Part shown: positions 3,296 to 28,555 of the stretch, in pieces
Layout of the letters: the number at the start of each line of letters is the position of its first letter
How positions within the stretch are numbered: the stretch's first letter is position 1
NCBI GenBank assembly: GCA_002699185.1
Contig: PABG01000003.1
Location: 1 to 36,936, forward strand
Direction of reading: 5' to 3'
Length of the DNA: 36,936 nt
Source of the DNA: Gammaproteobacteria bacterium
GTDB lineage: Bacteria; Pseudomonadota; Gammaproteobacteria; Thiohalobacterales; Thiohalobacteraceae
The notes under the pieces: generated by a model
What the model saw: only the letters and a program-made list of their open reading frames with translations
Database searches by the model: none
Told to the model about the DNA's origin: nothing
Translations under genes and position numbers: made by a program

Positions 3296-3331
3296 CGTCA
3301 TTGCGAGGCGCAACGCGCCGAAGCAATCTCC
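3296..3331. repeat. Partial CGTCATTGCGAG repeat end
   Basis: CGTCATTGCGAGG followed by AAGCAATCTCC repeats the left end of the elements at 1271 and 27008, but no matching right end follows. It runs instead into another small inverted repeat (GGTCGGATTA..TAGTCCGACC, about 3350-3376). It looks like a truncated copy. Confidence 0.55.
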
Positions 3332-4834: not shown

Positions 4835-4944
4835 GGGAATCTCTGAACAATTTTCTTCCGCCATCCCGGCGAAGGCCGGGATCCAGTCGAATCAGACCCA
4901 TGGATGCCTGCCTTCGCCGGCATGACGGGTCGATCAGAAATCCC
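4835..4944. repeat. GGGAATCTCTG-ended inverted-repeat element
   Basis: The left end GGGAATCTCTG and right end CAGAAATCCC form imperfect outer repeats. Inside is a hairpin core, CATCCCGGCGAAGGCCGGGATCCAG, followed by CTGCCTTCGCCGGCATGACGGG, a very common dispersed palindrome type in proteobacteria. The outer ends resemble those of the element at 26980-27184 (GGGAACCTCTG and TCGATCAGAGGTTCCC). Total length is 110 bp with no coding capacity. Confidence 0.7.
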
Positions 4945-5063
4945 GTAACTATATAATATTTATAGTAAGTCTTTGGCCGATGCCATTATTGTTATGCAGT
5001 TTGGAATTCTACAGAAAAACTGCCCCAAAAGGGAATGTCAGCCCCCCTTCATCTGGTTTTATT

Positions 5064-9996: not shown

Positions 9997-10714
9997 TGGC
10001 TCCTCCAGGATGCAACTTTTTGATTTAATTTATGTTCAAGGTCACGCGCCGCGGTGCTTTCGATGCAGATCTTGACAATCTGACTGTGGTTTGGTGCATC
10101 GCGATGTCGGCGGTGGTTAATGCGTTGTCATCTGTGCTTGATATTCTGTGGTGCGCTTGACGACAACCGGATCCCGACTAGTCCAAGGCGGCTAATCATG
10201 ATCAGCGGTTTCTTCTCTGTCAAGGCACATGTATGGCACATATCGGGGAAAATGTAAGTCAGGTATGTGCGTACATATCACTAGGATGAATGCTGACACC
10301 TGGTGTGTGTCGACCATGGGGTGTGGGCCGGTTAGACTCATCCGGATCGAGTACCGTCGGATACGGTCGGTTAACAAAAAGCCGGTAATGCCTTCAACCC
10401 GTCTTGTCGGGCTTCTTTGCAACCGGCAATCAGCGATGGTGACAGCGGTGGGGTAAATAAAAATATTGATAAAACAATGTGATATTAGTGTCTCGAGGGC
10501 TGCGGGCAGTCGTTCCGGTTGTCGGAATCATTAACAAAAATAGCTGTTGTGTGCAGCCAAGATCAGTACCTGCTTGATCAGGCAGGAATTAATTTTTATG
10601 GCATGTGACTTGCTTTATCCAATGCGTGTAAGTGACAGACTGATAGTCACTCACGCGAGGCATGTAGGACATTTGATGTCTCAACAACCAAAATCCTTTT
10701 GGAGGAGTTTGATA
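9997..10714. other. 718-bp divergent regulatory gap between FadL and a PEP-CTERM gene
   Basis: No gene is supported; the ORF running 10547-10714 is only an upstream extension of the PEP-CTERM reading frame. The gap is AT-richer than its neighbours and contains a sigma-54-type promoter at 10599-10614. A small CCCG-TCTTGT-CGGG hairpin near 10398-10411 is followed by CTTCTTT, and may be a weak terminator or part of a leader. Promoters for the FadL gene on the minus strand must lie here, but I cannot identify them. Confidence 0.6.
10599..10614 (+). promoter_or_regulatory. Sigma-54 (-24/-12) promoter for the first PEP-CTERM gene
   Basis: TGGCATGTGACTTGCT matches the RpoN consensus TGGCACG-N4-TTGCA: GG and GC are separated by exactly ten bases, and TGGCA and TTGC are kept. 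It lies 101 bases upstream of the ATG at 10715, on the same strand. Control of PEP-CTERM genes by RpoN together with PrsK/PrsR is known in other proteobacteria; neither regulator is encoded in this window. Confidence 0.75.
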
Positions 10715-11506
10715 ATGAAGAAAACGATTCTTTCCGCAGCAATGATCGCCGCCATGGGCGCCGGCAGCGCGCAGGCCGCATTCCTGCAGGCTGGCTCCAC
10801 CGGCACCATCGATTTCACCGCCGGCTGCTTCACCTTTGGCGACTGTGCCATCGGTGGTACCGGCAATGTCACTGACAACGACATCACCGTGCGCGGCAAC
10901 GGTACCGGCGTGGCCGGCGACGGTCTCGTGGGCCAGATCAGTTTCACCGTGGCGGCTGATGGTAACACTCTGATCATCGACAGTTTCCAGCAGGACACCT
11001 ACACCGGTACCGCAGGCGGCAACTTTGCCCTGAATACCGATGCCGCCAGCAGTAGCGGCTTCATCTCGGATTCCGGTGATGTCTCCCTGAGTCTGGCGCG
11101 TTCCGGCTTCCCCCAGTTCTTCTCTTACCTGGATGGGGCTGCTTGGAACATCGATGATTCCACCGTCGCTACCAATGCTGGCACCGCAACCAATACTTGG
11201 GATGTGCTGACCAGCGGTACCAGTACCAATCTGGACCCCTCGACTGGTGATCCGAATGCCAGTGGCACCGGTGTTGCACTGTCTTCCGCGGGTGCTGGTA
11301 TGTGGACTGGTGCAATCGTGAATTTCGGCAACGTTGGTGCCGGCTGGAGTAGCTTCAATAACACGCCCTACTCCGAGAAATTCAATATCACGGTGAACGG
11401 CGTTGCTGCTACCACCTCACCGGTCCCGGTGCCGGCGGCAGTCTGGCTGTTCGGCTCCGGCCTGCTCGGTCTGGTGGGCGTGGCCCGTCGCCGCAAGGCA
11501 GCCTGA
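10715..11506 (+). CDS. PEP-CTERM surface protein, paralog 1
   Basis: 263 residues. The signal peptide (MKKTILSAAMIAAMGAGSAQA) is followed by a 215-residue domain with CFTFGDC near its start, GDGLVGQISF, AWNIDDSTV and NVGAGWSSFNNTPYSEKFN. The C-terminus VPVPAAVWLFGSGLLGLVGVARRR is a textbook PEP-CTERM sorting signal, predicted to be cut by an exosortase (XrtA type) after translocation. I chose ATG 10715, not the track start at 10547, because GGAGGAG lies seven bases upstream and a signal peptide starts there. A close paralog is encoded at 19192, and the same domain forms the N-terminus of the 853-residue protein. A sigma-54 promoter precedes the gene and a strong terminator follows it, so it forms a single-gene transcript. 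The function of the domain is not known to me. Confidence 0.92.
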   Translation: MKKTILSAAMIAAMGAGSAQAAFLQAGSTGTIDFTAGCFTFGDCAIGGTGNVTDNDITVRGNGTGVAGDGLVGQISFTVAADGNTLIIDSFQQDTYTGTAGGNFALNTDAASSSGFISDSGDVSLSLARSGFPQFFSYLDGAAWNIDDSTVATNAGTATNTWDVLTSGTSTNLDPSTGDPNASGTGVALSSAGAGMWTGAIVNFGNVGAGWSSFNNTPYSEKFNITVNGVAATTSPVPVPAAVWLFGSGLLGLVGVARRRKAA

Positions 11507-18044: not shown

Positions 18045-18160
18045 TGCGATGATAGCGCTGCTCCGCTGGTTGTTATTCGACCGGAAGGCAGCTGTAAATT
18101 CTCGTTTATGGGTTTGATGGCAATAAATTGCGACCGTGTGGCATCAGAGGAGTAAACACA

Positions 18161-19054
18161 ATGACTATCAATAAAATCATAGGTGTGCTGGGTGTGGGCG
18201 CGATACTTGCGTTGAGCAGTCAGCAGGCCGCAGCCGCGGTTGTGGGCAGTGGTATGGCTGCCAGCCATGGGCTTGAGGCTGGTTTGAGCGCATTCGATGG
18301 AAACCTGAGCCTCAGTATCGATCCGTTGCCGGTGGGTGTGTCGGTCGTGGCGCCGCCTCCGGGCAATGTGAGTAACACTCATTTTGGCGTGGATACCGGA
18401 GATGCGTTCAAGCCGGGATTGCTATCCTCGACTTTCGCAATGGAGTTGTCCACAGGTGTTCTCAATGCCAGTGCCTCATCCACGGTTGATGGTGCTCCGG
18501 GCGTGAAGGAGAGTTCGGCGTCGTCATCTGTCGATGATCTTGATTTCAGGATTGGTACGCTTGATCTGCTGGGTTTGATTTCTGCTTCCACGGTAGATCT
18601 GACTGCAGGCACCATCAGTTCCAGTGCAAGCGTCGGTGGCACGCCTGGAAATTTTGTGGCGAATGGTGGGACTACGCTGGAGGATGCCAGTTTATCGCTG
18701 GTCGATGCGGATATCCTGGGTATTGGCCTGGGCCTGGATGGCAATCTAATCGTTAATCCAGATCCTAACCTTGTGATTGTTAATGCGCTGGGGCTTACCG
18801 TGACCCTGAACCGCCAGCTGGTTAACGGTGAGGTCGGTGGTAGCTGCGCTATTAACGACTGTCATATCAGCGTGGATGCCATTGTGCTTGAATTCACTGA
18901 TTTTCTCCTGGGGGGCGGGCTGCTGAATGGCGAACTTGTCCTTGGGCATTCGGAAGCCGGCGTGAGTGCTGTTCCGGTTCCAGCCGCTGTGTGGCTTTTC
19001 GGTAGTGGTCTGGTTGGGCTGTATGGGTTGGCTAGAAGAAAAGCAGTGGCATGA
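18161..19054 (+). CDS. PEP-CTERM surface protein, distinct family
   Basis: 297 residues. The signal peptide (IIGVLGVGAILALSSQQAAA) is followed by a Ser/Gly/Asp-rich beta domain with repeated short strands such as LSLSIDPLPVGVSV and LDLLGLISASTVDLTAGT, and a CAINDC cysteine pair near the C-terminal third. The end, VPVPAAVWLFGSGLVGLYGLARRK, is a canonical PEP-CTERM signal, nearly the same as in the two paralogs at 10715 and 19192, although the rest is unrelated by eye. ATG 18161 is preferred over the track start at 18128 because AGAGGAG lies nine bases upstream and the signal peptide starts there. It lies between the 330-residue protein gene (116 bp upstream) and PEP-CTERM paralog 2 (137 bp downstream), so one transcript for all three is possible. 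Confidence 0.9.
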   Translation: MTINKIIGVLGVGAILALSSQQAAAAVVGSGMAASHGLEAGLSAFDGNLSLSIDPLPVGVSVVAPPPGNVSNTHFGVDTGDAFKPGLLSSTFAMELSTGVLNASASSTVDGAPGVKESSASSSVDDLDFRIGTLDLLGLISASTVDLTAGTISSSASVGGTPGNFVANGGTTLEDASLSLVDADILGIGLGLDGNLIVNPDPNLVIVNALGLTVTLNRQLVNGEVGGSCAINDCHISVDAIVLEFTDFLLGGGLLNGELVLGHSEAGVSAVPVPAAVWLFGSGLVGLYGLARRKAVA

Positions 19055-19191
19055 ATATGCCCCAGGTGGAGTTCAGGGGTATTTAAGGACGGCTGATTGA
19101 TGGCGAGTGAAGTTGTTGCAATTGGCCAATGAGCAGGGATGGCTGGTAGAGATTGTTTGTATGCTATACGTCAATATGGAGGAGTTTGGTT

Positions 19192-19995
19192 ATGAATATC
19201 AAGAAAACAATCCTGTCGTCCGCGGTGATCACCGCGCTGGGTGTTGCAGGTTCAGCTCAGGCCGCATTCCTGCAGGCCGGTACCACCGGTACCATCGATT
19301 TCACCGGCGGCTGCTTCACCTTCGGTGACTGCGCCATTGGTGGTACTGGCAATGTTGCAGACAATGATATTACTGTGCGGGGGAATGGCACTGGCGTGGC
19401 TGGCGATGGTCTGGTTGGGCAGATCAGCTTTACCGTGGCAGCTGACGGTAATACTCTGATCATCGATAGCCTTCAGCAGGACACCTACACTGGTACCGCC
19501 GGTGGTAACTTTGCCCTGAATACCGATGCCAGCAGCAGCAGCGGTTTCATCTCGGATTCGGGGGAGGTTTCCCTGAGTCTCGCCCGTTCAGGGTATCCGC
19601 AGTTCTTCAGCTATCTGGATGGCTCTCCGTGGAATATCGATGATTCCACGGTGGCAACCAATGCCGGCACCGCAACCAATACCTGGGATGTTCTGACCAC
19701 TGGTACCAGTACCAACCTGGATCCGTCTACCGGTGATCCGAATGCCAGTGGTACGGGGGTTGCCCTGTCTTCCTCGGGTGCCGGTATGTGGAGCGGGATG
19801 GTTGTCAATTTCGGCAACGTTGGTGCAGGCTGGGGGAGTTTCGACAATACGCCATATTCCGAGAAGTTCAATATCACCGTTAATGGGGTGGCTGCGACAA
19901 CTTCACCGGTACCTGTTCCGGCTGCGGTATGGCTGTTCGGTAGTGGTATGCTTGGTCTGGTCGGTATTGCACGGCGGCGTCGGGCCCAGGCTTAG
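19192..19995 (+). CDS. PEP-CTERM surface protein, paralog 2
   Basis: 267 residues, near-identical in its mature part to the protein at 10715 (about 90 percent by eye) with a slightly different signal peptide (MNIKKTILSSAVITALGVAGSAQA). It has the same landmarks: CFTFGDC, GDGLVGQISF, PWNIDDSTV, NVGAGWGSFDNTPYSEKFN and C-terminal VPVPAAVWLFGSGMLGLVGIARRRR. The DNA differs at many third codon positions while the protein is conserved, which suggests selection to keep both copies. ATG 19192 is chosen because GGAGGAG lies seven bases upstream, exactly as in paralog 1. No canonical sigma-54 site is found in the 137 bp before it. A terminator follows at 20065. Confidence 0.92.
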   Translation: MNIKKTILSSAVITALGVAGSAQAAFLQAGTTGTIDFTGGCFTFGDCAIGGTGNVADNDITVRGNGTGVAGDGLVGQISFTVAADGNTLIIDSLQQDTYTGTAGGNFALNTDASSSSGFISDSGEVSLSLARSGYPQFFSYLDGSPWNIDDSTVATNAGTATNTWDVLTTGTSTNLDPSTGDPNASGTGVALSSSGAGMWSGMVVNFGNVGAGWGSFDNTPYSEKFNITVNGVAATTSPVPVPAAVWLFGSGMLGLVGIARRRRAQA

Positions 19996-26128: not shown

Positions 26129-26980
26129 ATGAATATGCAGGCCATGCGCATCCTGGCGATGCTGCTCGCACTCGGGGCAGTCGTGCTGGGTTACATCGGC
26201 TACAAGCTGAGTACCGCGCCGGTGGAGACGCCGCAGACCGAGGTGCAGCCCGTGGCCGAGCCCGAGTCGTCCGCGGACCTGCGGCGGGTGATCATCGCCA
26301 GTCGCCGGATCGAGGCCGGAGCCGCGATCATGGCGGATGATCTGGATACGATCCGGGTTCCCGTGGTGCGCGAGGGGGCCTTTCATACCACCGAACCCTT
26401 GCTGGAGCGCACGCCCGCAGTTCCCGTCGCGGCCGGTGAGATCGTACTGGAGAGTCATTTCCATAGCGGCAGCCGGATCGCGCGCCTGCTGGAACCGGGC
26501 ATGCGCGCAATCGCCGTCAAGGTGGATGAGGTCATCGGCGGCGGCGCCTACGTTCAGCCCGGAGATCATGTCGATGTTCTGGTGTACCTGCGCGGCGGCA
26601 TGACCGAAGTCAGCCGCAGCACTGCGCGGATACTGCTCGAACGGGCGGAGGTGCTCGCCTATGGCAAGACCGTGGCCGTCAGGCAGGACGGGCGGGTGGT
26701 GAATCTCGAGGATGATCCGCGCGCGGATCCCGGCAGCCGCTCGGCTGTGCTGGCAGTGCCGCGTGAGCAGGCCGGTCGGTTGATGCTGGCCGAACATGCC
26801 GGGGCGATCCGGCTTGCCGTGGTCTCCAGCCGGGAGACGGAGGAGCTCGGCGCCGGGGGGCAATCCGGCAGCGCCCGGGTCATGCTTGATGAACTGGCGG
26901 GCGACTCCCGGCCGAGCCGGAGTTACAGCATTCCTGTGTATCGCGGCACCGAGCGCAGTGCCCAGACGGTTTCACGCTAG
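26129..26980 (+). CDS. cpaB: CpaB/RcpC pilus assembly protein
   Basis: 283 residues. An N-terminal membrane helix (LAMLLALGAVVLGYIGYKL) anchors a periplasmic protein with an SAF domain (VIIASRRIEAGAAIMADDLD) and a RcpC region (GMRAIAVKVDEVIGGGAYVQ then PGDHVDVLVYL). It works with the secretin in crossing the outer membrane. AAGGAT lies before the ATG. The 108-bp gap upstream contains a partial repeat (GTAGGTCGGTTAGTACAGCG). The stop codon TAG is directly followed by the left end of a 205-bp repeat element. Confidence 0.93.
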   Translation: MNMQAMRILAMLLALGAVVLGYIGYKLSTAPVETPQTEVQPVAEPESSADLRRVIIASRRIEAGAAIMADDLDTIRVPVVREGAFHTTEPLLERTPAVPVAAGEIVLESHFHSGSRIARLLEPGMRAIAVKVDEVIGGGAYVQPGDHVDVLVYLRGGMTEVSRSTARILLERAEVLAYGKTVAVRQDGRVVNLEDDPRADPGSRSAVLAVPREQAGRLMLAEHAGAIRLAVVSSRETEELGAGGQSGSARVMLDELAGDSRPSRSYSIPVYRGTERSAQTVSR

Positions 26981-27184
26981 GGAACCTCTGGTGAATTACA
27001 AAATACCCGTCATTGCGAGTACCCAAGAGGGCATAAACGAAGCGTGGCAATCTCGTAATGCAGAATCAATCGGTTGGAGATTGCCACGTCGCTTTCCCAT
27101 TGAACCCCTTCGGGGTTCATCATGGGTACCTTACCCTTGCGGGTCAAGGCATCCTCGCAATGACGTAGTCGATCAGAGGTTCCC
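26980..27184. repeat. 205-bp nested inverted-repeat (MITE-like) element between cpaB and cpaC
   Basis: Three perfect inverted repeats are nested: GGGAACCTCTG/CAGAGGTTCCC (26980 and 27174), CGTCATTGCGAG/CTCGCAATGACG (27008 and 27154) and GTGGCAATCTC/GAGATTGCCAC (27044 and 27077). A further tight hairpin, TGAACCCC-TTC-GGGGTTCA, lies at 27101-27119. The middle repeat is shared with 1271-1454, the outer one resembles 4835-4944. The element fills the gap between two pilus genes; its right end supplies AGAGG eight bases before the cpaC ATG. Confidence 0.85.
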
Positions 27185-27187
27185 CAG

Positions 27188-28555
27188 ATGGAAGACTCTA
27201 TGAATAACAGGGACAGAATTCGCGTACACCGGCTGCTCAAGGTCTGCCTGCTGTGGTGTCTGGCGCTGGTCCAGGGATTGGCAGTCGCGGCAGATCGGAC
27301 GCTCGAGATTCCGCTGGCCCAGCAGCAGAACCTGAGCTACAGCCAACCGGTGACACGGCTGGCACTGGGTGATCCCGGGGTCGCGGACGTGCAGGCCGTG
27401 GGCAGCCGGGATGTCCTGATCACGAGCCGGAGGCTGGGCAGCACCAGTCTCAAGGTGTGGCTGCAGGGAGGGGAAGTGCGCAGCTACCGGATCCGGGTGG
27501 TGCCGACCGAGGAGACCACAGCGGCACTCGGCGGCACAGGCATGCAGCTGGTGCCCGCCGGTGAAGGCGTGGCGCTGACCGGTGAAGCGGACTCTCTGCC
27601 GGAGCATGCGGCGGCACGGGCCGCAGCCGGGCAGGATGCAAGGCTGGATGATCGCACTCGTACCGGTTTCCGGCACCAGGTGCAGACCGATATCCGAATC
27701 GTCGAAATCAGTCACAACAAGCTCAAGGAGGTCGGCTTCTTCCTCAGTAAGGTCAACCGCAATACCACCGGCGCTATCGCGCCGCCGGGCGTGCTCTCCG
27801 GCGTCAGCGGCGGTGGTGGCAGCGGCTTCTCCCTGTCCAGCGGCAGCGGCTTCCTGCCTTCCATAAACAGTTTCAACCTGGTCTTTGGCCGCGCCAGGGA
27901 CAATGTGCTCGGGGTGCTGAGCGTGCTGGAGGGCAACGGCTTCGCCTATACCCTGGCCGAACCCTCGCTGGTGACCCTGAGCGGCCAGCAGGCCAGCTTT
28001 CTGGTGGGGGGGGAGTTTCCCATTCCAGTGCGGCAGGGTTCCGGCAGCGATGCCTCCATCAGTATCGAGTACAAGGAATTCGGTATCCGGCTGTTTCTCA
28101 CACCCACGGTGCTGGCCGAAGACCAGATCATGTTGCGGGTCGCGCCCGAGGTCAGTGAACTGGACTTCAGCACCGGGATCGAAAGCGGCGGGGTGTCGGT
28201 GCCGTCCCTGCGGGTGCGTCGCACCGAGACCAGCATCGAACTTGGCGACGGCGAAAGTTTTGTCGTCAGTGGTCTGATGAGCCGGGAGACAATCTCCAAC
28301 GTCGACAAGGTGCCCGGCCTGGGTGACGTGCCGGTACTGGGTGCCTTCTTCCGCTCGTCCCGGCTGGACATGAGCGACCGCGAATTGATCATGGTGGTTA
28401 CCCCGCGTCTGGTCAGCCCGCTGGCCGCCGATGCGGAACTGCCGCCGCTGCCGGGTGAGAAGTATCGCGAGTACGACCCTTCATTCAGTGAGTTCGCGCT
28501 GCCGGGAGTGACCGGGGGCGAGCCGCGGGACGCCAACTACGGATTCTCGGACTAG
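27188..28555 (+). CDS. cpaC: CpaC/RcpA Tad secretin
   Basis: 455 residues, the outer-membrane channel for the Flp pilus. A signal peptide (LLWCLALVQGLAVA) is followed by the pilus secretin N-domain (EIPLAQQQNLSYSQPVTRLA and VADVQAVGSRDVLIT), a Gly/Ser-rich loop (GVSGGGGSGFSLSSGSG), and the secretin core (TLSGQQASFLVGGEFPIPV, VSVPSLRVRRTETSIELGDG, VPGLGDVPVLGAFFRS, ELIMVVTPRLV). The start is ATG 27188 with AGAGG eight bases upstream, provided by the repeat element; ATG 27200 with GGAAG is an alternative. It is separated from cpaB only by the repeat. Confidence 0.95.
   Translation: MEDSMNNRDRIRVHRLLKVCLLWCLALVQGLAVAADRTLEIPLAQQQNLSYSQPVTRLALGDPGVADVQAVGSRDVLITSRRLGSTSLKVWLQGGEVRSYRIRVVPTEETTAALGGTGMQLVPAGEGVALTGEADSLPEHAAARAAAGQDARLDDRTRTGFRHQVQTDIRIVEISHNKLKEVGFFLSKVNRNTTGAIAPPGVLSGVSGGGGSGFSLSSGSGFLPSINSFNLVFGRARDNVLGVLSVLEGNGFAYTLAEPSLVTLSGQQASFLVGGEFPIPVRQGSGSDASISIEYKEFGIRLFLTPTVLAEDQIMLRVAPEVSELDFSTGIESGGVSVPSLRVRRTETSIELGDGESFVVSGLMSRETISNVDKVPGLGDVPVLGAFFRSSRLDMSDRELIMVVTPRLVSPLAADAELPPLPGEKYREYDPSFSEFALPGVTGGEPRDANYGFSD

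Follow-up and report, generated by a model that had tools for sequence, protein, structure and literature searches.

The palindromic block of 203 bp that lies between cpaB and cpaC is, with very high probability, a non-autonomous MITE of the IS5 family, composite in build, which an IS5-type transposase placed into a CTAG target at this junction after the split from Thiohalobacter thiocyanaticus HRh1. It is an ordinary, well-resolved transposon insertion, as opposed to an evolved gene switch. The element is one copy of a common miniature transposon that carries no gene. The window referred to below is the whole stretch of 36,936 nucleotides that was analyzed, which belongs to a 2.9-Mb draft genome that is 79% complete. 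An earlier note on this DNA had proposed that a mobile element inserted at the cpaB stop, and this is now strongly supported by an empty site in HRh1, by a target-site duplication (TSD) and by an autonomous IS that shares the element's ends.

The gene upstream of the element, cpaB (RcpC/CpaB; 26129-26980, forward strand), matched TIGR03177 with 176 bits against a cut-off of 71, as well as PF16976, and its TAG stop (26978-26980) lies within the target duplication. Downstream is the cpaC secretin (27200-28555, forward strand; PF00263 and PF13629), whose M-N-N-R-D start is conserved in HRh1. Its native start is probably ATG 27200, with ATG 27188 being an in-frame alternative and not the main start. 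By profile matches the neighboring genes form a tad pilus set consisting of a prepilin peptidase, a TadE-like protein, CpaB, the secretin, TadZ, the TadA ATPase and a TadB-like protein.

Three nested perfect inverted repeats had been described in the block, and all three arms were verified at their exact coordinates: an outer pair of 11 bp (GGGAACCTCTG, 26980-26990 and 27174-27184), a middle pair of 12 bp (CGTCATTGCGAG, 27008-27019 and 27154-27165) and an inner pair of 12 bp (CGTGGCAATCTC, 27043-27054 and 27077-27088). Beyond these, the block holds a fourth hairpin with perfect 8-bp arms (TGAACCCC/GGGGTTCA, 27101-27119) and an imperfect arm pair of 10 bp with 90% agreement (27019-27028 and 27120-27129). 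The RNA fold of 26970-27200 has a predicted energy of -104.4 kcal/mol, compared with -65.0 +/- 4.4 for shuffled sequences (z = -9.0), and none of 200 shuffles folded as stably. From the copy counts given below, the repeats are not due to chance. The left end had been said to abut the cpaB TAG, which is correct as to the location of the junction, yet the outer repeat actually shares the last G of that codon. Delimited by the target duplication, the element proper occupies 26981-27183. It begins with the left terminal inverted repeat (TIR) GGAACCTCTG (26981-26990, forward strand) and ends with the right TIR (27174-27183, reverse strand), so that, with its flanks, it reads (CTAG)GGAACCTCTG...CAGAGGTTCC(CCAG). 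Between the ends lies a core palindrome of 156 bp, GTCATTGCGAG...CTCGCAATGAC (27009-27164), which is an independent dispersed repeat. The central hairpin of the core, CGTGGCAATCTC/GAGATTGCCACG (27043-27088), is common to core copies, and the 27101-27119 hairpin, TGAACCCC-TTC-GGGGTTCA, is an extra module in the right arm of the window copy, to which modules of other long cores are related. In its long middle, the window copy combines two arm types that are both known from other core copies. A transposase ORF is absent from the 203 bp, a size under the MITE limit of about 600 bp.

Comparison of the junction with that of relatives, which the earlier note had suggested as a check, revealed the empty site. 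Strain HRh1 belongs to the same genus and carries an orthologous cpaC that is 91% identical. Its junction, CAGACGGTACACTAGATGGAAGATTATATGAATAACAGGG, contains one CTAG, lacks the element and continues with ATGGAAG...ATG; the empty-site sequence, ...CAGACGGTACACTAGATGGAAGATTATATGAATAAC, holds its single CTAG at the same place as the left TSD of the window (26977-26980). One CTAG in the empty site is what a target-duplicating insertion predicts. The right TSD (27184-27187) is CCAG, one base off the left copy, which is a point against insertion, although single-base differences between TSD copies are frequent in the family. Had the site originally been CCAG, cpaB would have lacked its TAG stop, and CTAG is therefore likely the ancestral target. 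On the sequences compared, the cpaB TAG is itself part of the duplicated target. Insertion would have duplicated CTAG, with the left copy retaining the TAG and the right copy later drifting to CCAG. Because the duplication preserves the TAG, neither gene is harmed; cpaB, cpaC and the native Shine-Dalgarno sequence of cpaC would have remained intact, which is probably the reason that the insertion was tolerated.

The window block gave 50 BLAST matches within its own 2.9-Mb draft genome. Counts of the repeat pairs, also suggested earlier, gave 9 exact genomic occurrences of GGGAACCTCTG against 1 for the reversed control. Two of the nine are supplied by an intact IS of 1166 bp on contig C51 of the same genome, which is bounded by the same target as the window element, (CTAG)GGAACCTCTG...CAGAGGTTCC(CTAG), and whose ends read further inward as (CTAG)GGAACCTCTGC...GCAGAGGTTCC(CTAG). 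Its 320-aa transposase scored 348.9 bits to NF033581, 'IS5 family transposase', against a cut-off of 140. Identity between the ends of this IS and those of the window MITE is confined to the first 10-11 bp, and the ends of the window copy are degraded past 10 bp. Ends nearer to GGAACCTCTGATTTATTC were found in another genus of the same family (genome G006), where IS5 elements whose ends are GGAACCTCTGATCAATCG and GGAACCTCTGATTTATTAAC and whose targets are CTAG or CTAA match the MITE consensus over a greater length. Several of these elements (L168, L170, L172, L174) are intact and, having ends similar to the MITE's, are candidate mobilizing partners. No fully matching autonomous partner of the MITE was found in the 79% of the window's genome that the draft represents. 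The MITE would have been mobilized in trans by an IS5 transposase.

Target duplication was also evident beyond the window. We compared 25 TIR pairs, with ends 60-320 bp apart and readable flanks, drawn from loci of the window's genome, from 1.2 Mb of HRh1 and from further relatives. In 17 of them at least 3 of the 4 bases match between the two flanking tetramers; when the flanks were re-paired at random (5000 trials), matching pairs numbered 8.7 on average and never more than 16. The consensus target is YTAR (CTAG, TTAA, CTAA). At least 7 TIR-paired copies containing the window's core are present among the loci of the window's genome, along with additional single ends. A TIR search allowing 2 mismatches was mostly noise (68+60 hits against 48+35 in the control) and served as a lead only. 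The element has TIRs that match those of an autonomous IS5-family element, a 4-bp YTAR duplication, a short transposase-free body and dispersed copies. A literature search for GGAACCTCTG together with MITE and IS5 found, among the papers listed, none that places the sequence in a MITE context.

The IS5-type ends, or shell, enclose a palindrome that is far more common than they are. The core half-site GTCATTGCGAG occurs exactly 184 times in the genome (91+93) and not once in the control. Only a minority of the 73 paired core copies examined are flanked by GGAACCTCTG-type ends; the rest stand alone or carry a second outer end type, (G)AATGGCACTTA..TTAAGCC. Ends of this second type were seen at L009, L010, L036 and L042, with L010 being a mosaic that has one end of each kind. 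Shell ends without cores are found in genomes G031 (32 ends, 0 cores) and G043 (8 ends, 0 cores), and G046 has many shell ends and no cores. Conversely, genome G026 lacks shell ends but contains 29 core half-sites. In G010 an alternative palindrome, GTCATCCCGGCGAAGGCCGGG, is located inside the shell with TTAA on both sides. At locus L038 (272-438) the core in the window's genome is 167 bp long and includes extra hairpin modules, in contrast to a basic core at the HRh1 orthologue, and from these orthologous sequences the modules seem to have been gained or exchanged in place.

The earlier suggestion that one element had inserted into another is therefore correct in kind: the element is composite, with shell and core each occurring alone, and the core would have entered the shell by either insertion or recombination. 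When 1.2 Mb of HRh1 were surveyed for empty sites of the core, both flanks were present for 17 of 73 copies, and no clear core-only duplication emerged. We tentatively propose, with more doubt than conviction, that the IS5-type miniature ends in Thiohalobacter and its relatives act as an interchangeable carrier for host palindromes of the GTCATTGCGAG or GTCATCCCGG type, with cores that swap hairpin modules, as a modular and recombining family of composite MITEs. A full-text literature search for GTCATTGCGAG returned only papers on unrelated subjects.

Other repeats are present in the window. A 182-bp core copy, GTCATTGCGAG...CTCGCAATGAC, without IS5-type ends lies between exopolysaccharide genes (1272-1453), a further core half-site is at 3297-3307, and at 4836-4970 a shell-like end in degenerate form (GGAATCTCTGA...) precedes a different palindrome, CCATCCCGGCGAAGGCCGGGATCC. 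Three secreted-looking proteins (10547-11506, 18128-19054 and 19153-19995) share near-identical C-terminal tails, VPVPAAVWLFGSGL(L/V)GL...RRR, a PEP-CTERM-like sorting signal, and occur near exopolysaccharide genes.

The earlier note had read the block as supplying the ribosome-binding site of cpaC. The right TIR does hold an AGAGG (27175-27179) eight bases before an ATG, but that ATG is the one at 27188, probably not the main start. The AGAGG is also predicted to be about 0% unpaired in the transcript owing to its pairing with the element's left end, the whole right TIR being predicted as fully paired. The in-frame ATGGAAG...ATGAATAAC is shared by element-free HRh1, where 5 nt separate GGAAG from the second ATG, which corresponds to 27200 here. 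That GGAAG (27190-27194, forward strand) is probably the native Shine-Dalgarno sequence of cpaC; it lies outside the element, 5 nt before ATG 27200, and is conserved in HRh1 (ATGGAAGATTATATGAATAAC), so that the proposed role as supplier of the site is not upheld. An RNA element dedicated to the tad operon, setting the ratio of CpaB to secretin through the cpaC ribosome-binding site or by mRNA protection, would be in keeping with the very stable fold, the exact intergenic position and the AGAGG; moreover, hairpins of Correia MITEs within transcripts are reported to be cut by RNase III (PMC10969869). Even so we regard such an element as quite improbable, given that many similar copies exist elsewhere in the genome, that an Rfam scan of the window at gathering score matched no family, that a scan of 26900-27300 for an intrinsic terminator (GC hairpin followed by a T run) found none, and that both HRh1 and two Thiogranum tad loci (66% and 63%), with short junctions, are without the block, which argues against an evolved function in the operon. 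A tolerated transposon insertion is the most likely account of function. Before insertion the cpaB stop and ATG 27200 were 12 nt apart, and the addition of 207 bases may have weakened translational coupling from cpaB to cpaC, which may be partly lost. By analogy with Correia elements, the long hairpin could be processed by RNase III within the transcript of the tad operon.

Another reading is that the element is old and was precisely deleted in HRh1, which is the only congener with an orthologous tad locus available for comparison. We consider this exceedingly unlikely, however, as precise excision of DDE elements that leaves a single TSD copy is rare, HRh1 has exactly one CTAG and the Thiogranum junctions are likewise element-free. 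A different origin is raised by the core, which as a pair of inverted half-sites at high copy number is REPIN-like. On that view a REP-associated tyrosine transposase (RAYT) would have moved the whole structure as a REPIN-type palindrome, and the resemblance of its ends to IS5 would be incidental; Y1 transposases do occur in 5 of the 7 relatives searched. This is very improbable, since the insertion at cpaB-cpaC is bounded by IS5-type ends and a CTAG duplication and not by the ends of the core. For the core by itself we likewise rejected a REPIN/RAYT origin: the window's genome (draft, 79% complete) gave no Y1 match, and the Y1 genes of the relatives have GTAG-type repeats at their flanks or no repeats at all, with no GTCATTGCGAG copy within about 1.5 kb. 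At L322 and L323 such Y1 genes are flanked by repeats of the GTAGGGTGCGTC or GTAGGTCGGGTTAG type, an arrangement of the RAYT/REP kind that differs from the core.

With the composite IS5-family MITE, a suspected regulatory element is replaced by a dissected insertion, and it is evident that an element targeting YTAR can hit a stop codon and leave both genes unharmed. The insertion also points to a polar or decoupling effect that may act in a tad pilus operon and can be measured. The separable shell and core provide a clean comparative system for studying nesting and module exchange among bacterial palindromic repeats.

Several known systems share features with the element. IS5-family IS elements of the NF033581 'transpos_IS5_4' group and their MITEs have the same GGAACCTCTG... 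ends and 4-bp YTAR duplication (CTAG/TTAA/CTAA), and the MITEs are likewise small, transposase-free and present in many copies; unlike them, the window copy is filled by an unrelated dispersed palindrome. Correia elements (CREE) of Neisseria are also MITEs of about 100-200 bp that form a long RNA hairpin and are often gene-adjacent and found in transcripts, yet the window element has other ends and another parent family. The high-copy inverted half-sites of the core recall the REPIN and BIME palindromes associated with RAYT, from which the core differs in that it lacks a GTAG-type start, that the draft genome yielded no RAYT and that the Y1 genes of relatives are not linked to it. A mosaic nature is also found in the TIMEs (PMC4133298), in which miniature ends form non-autonomous elements together with other DNA, although these derive from the Tn3 family and are filled with mobilized genomic DNA, whereas the window element is of the IS5 family and has a dispersed palindrome as its filling.
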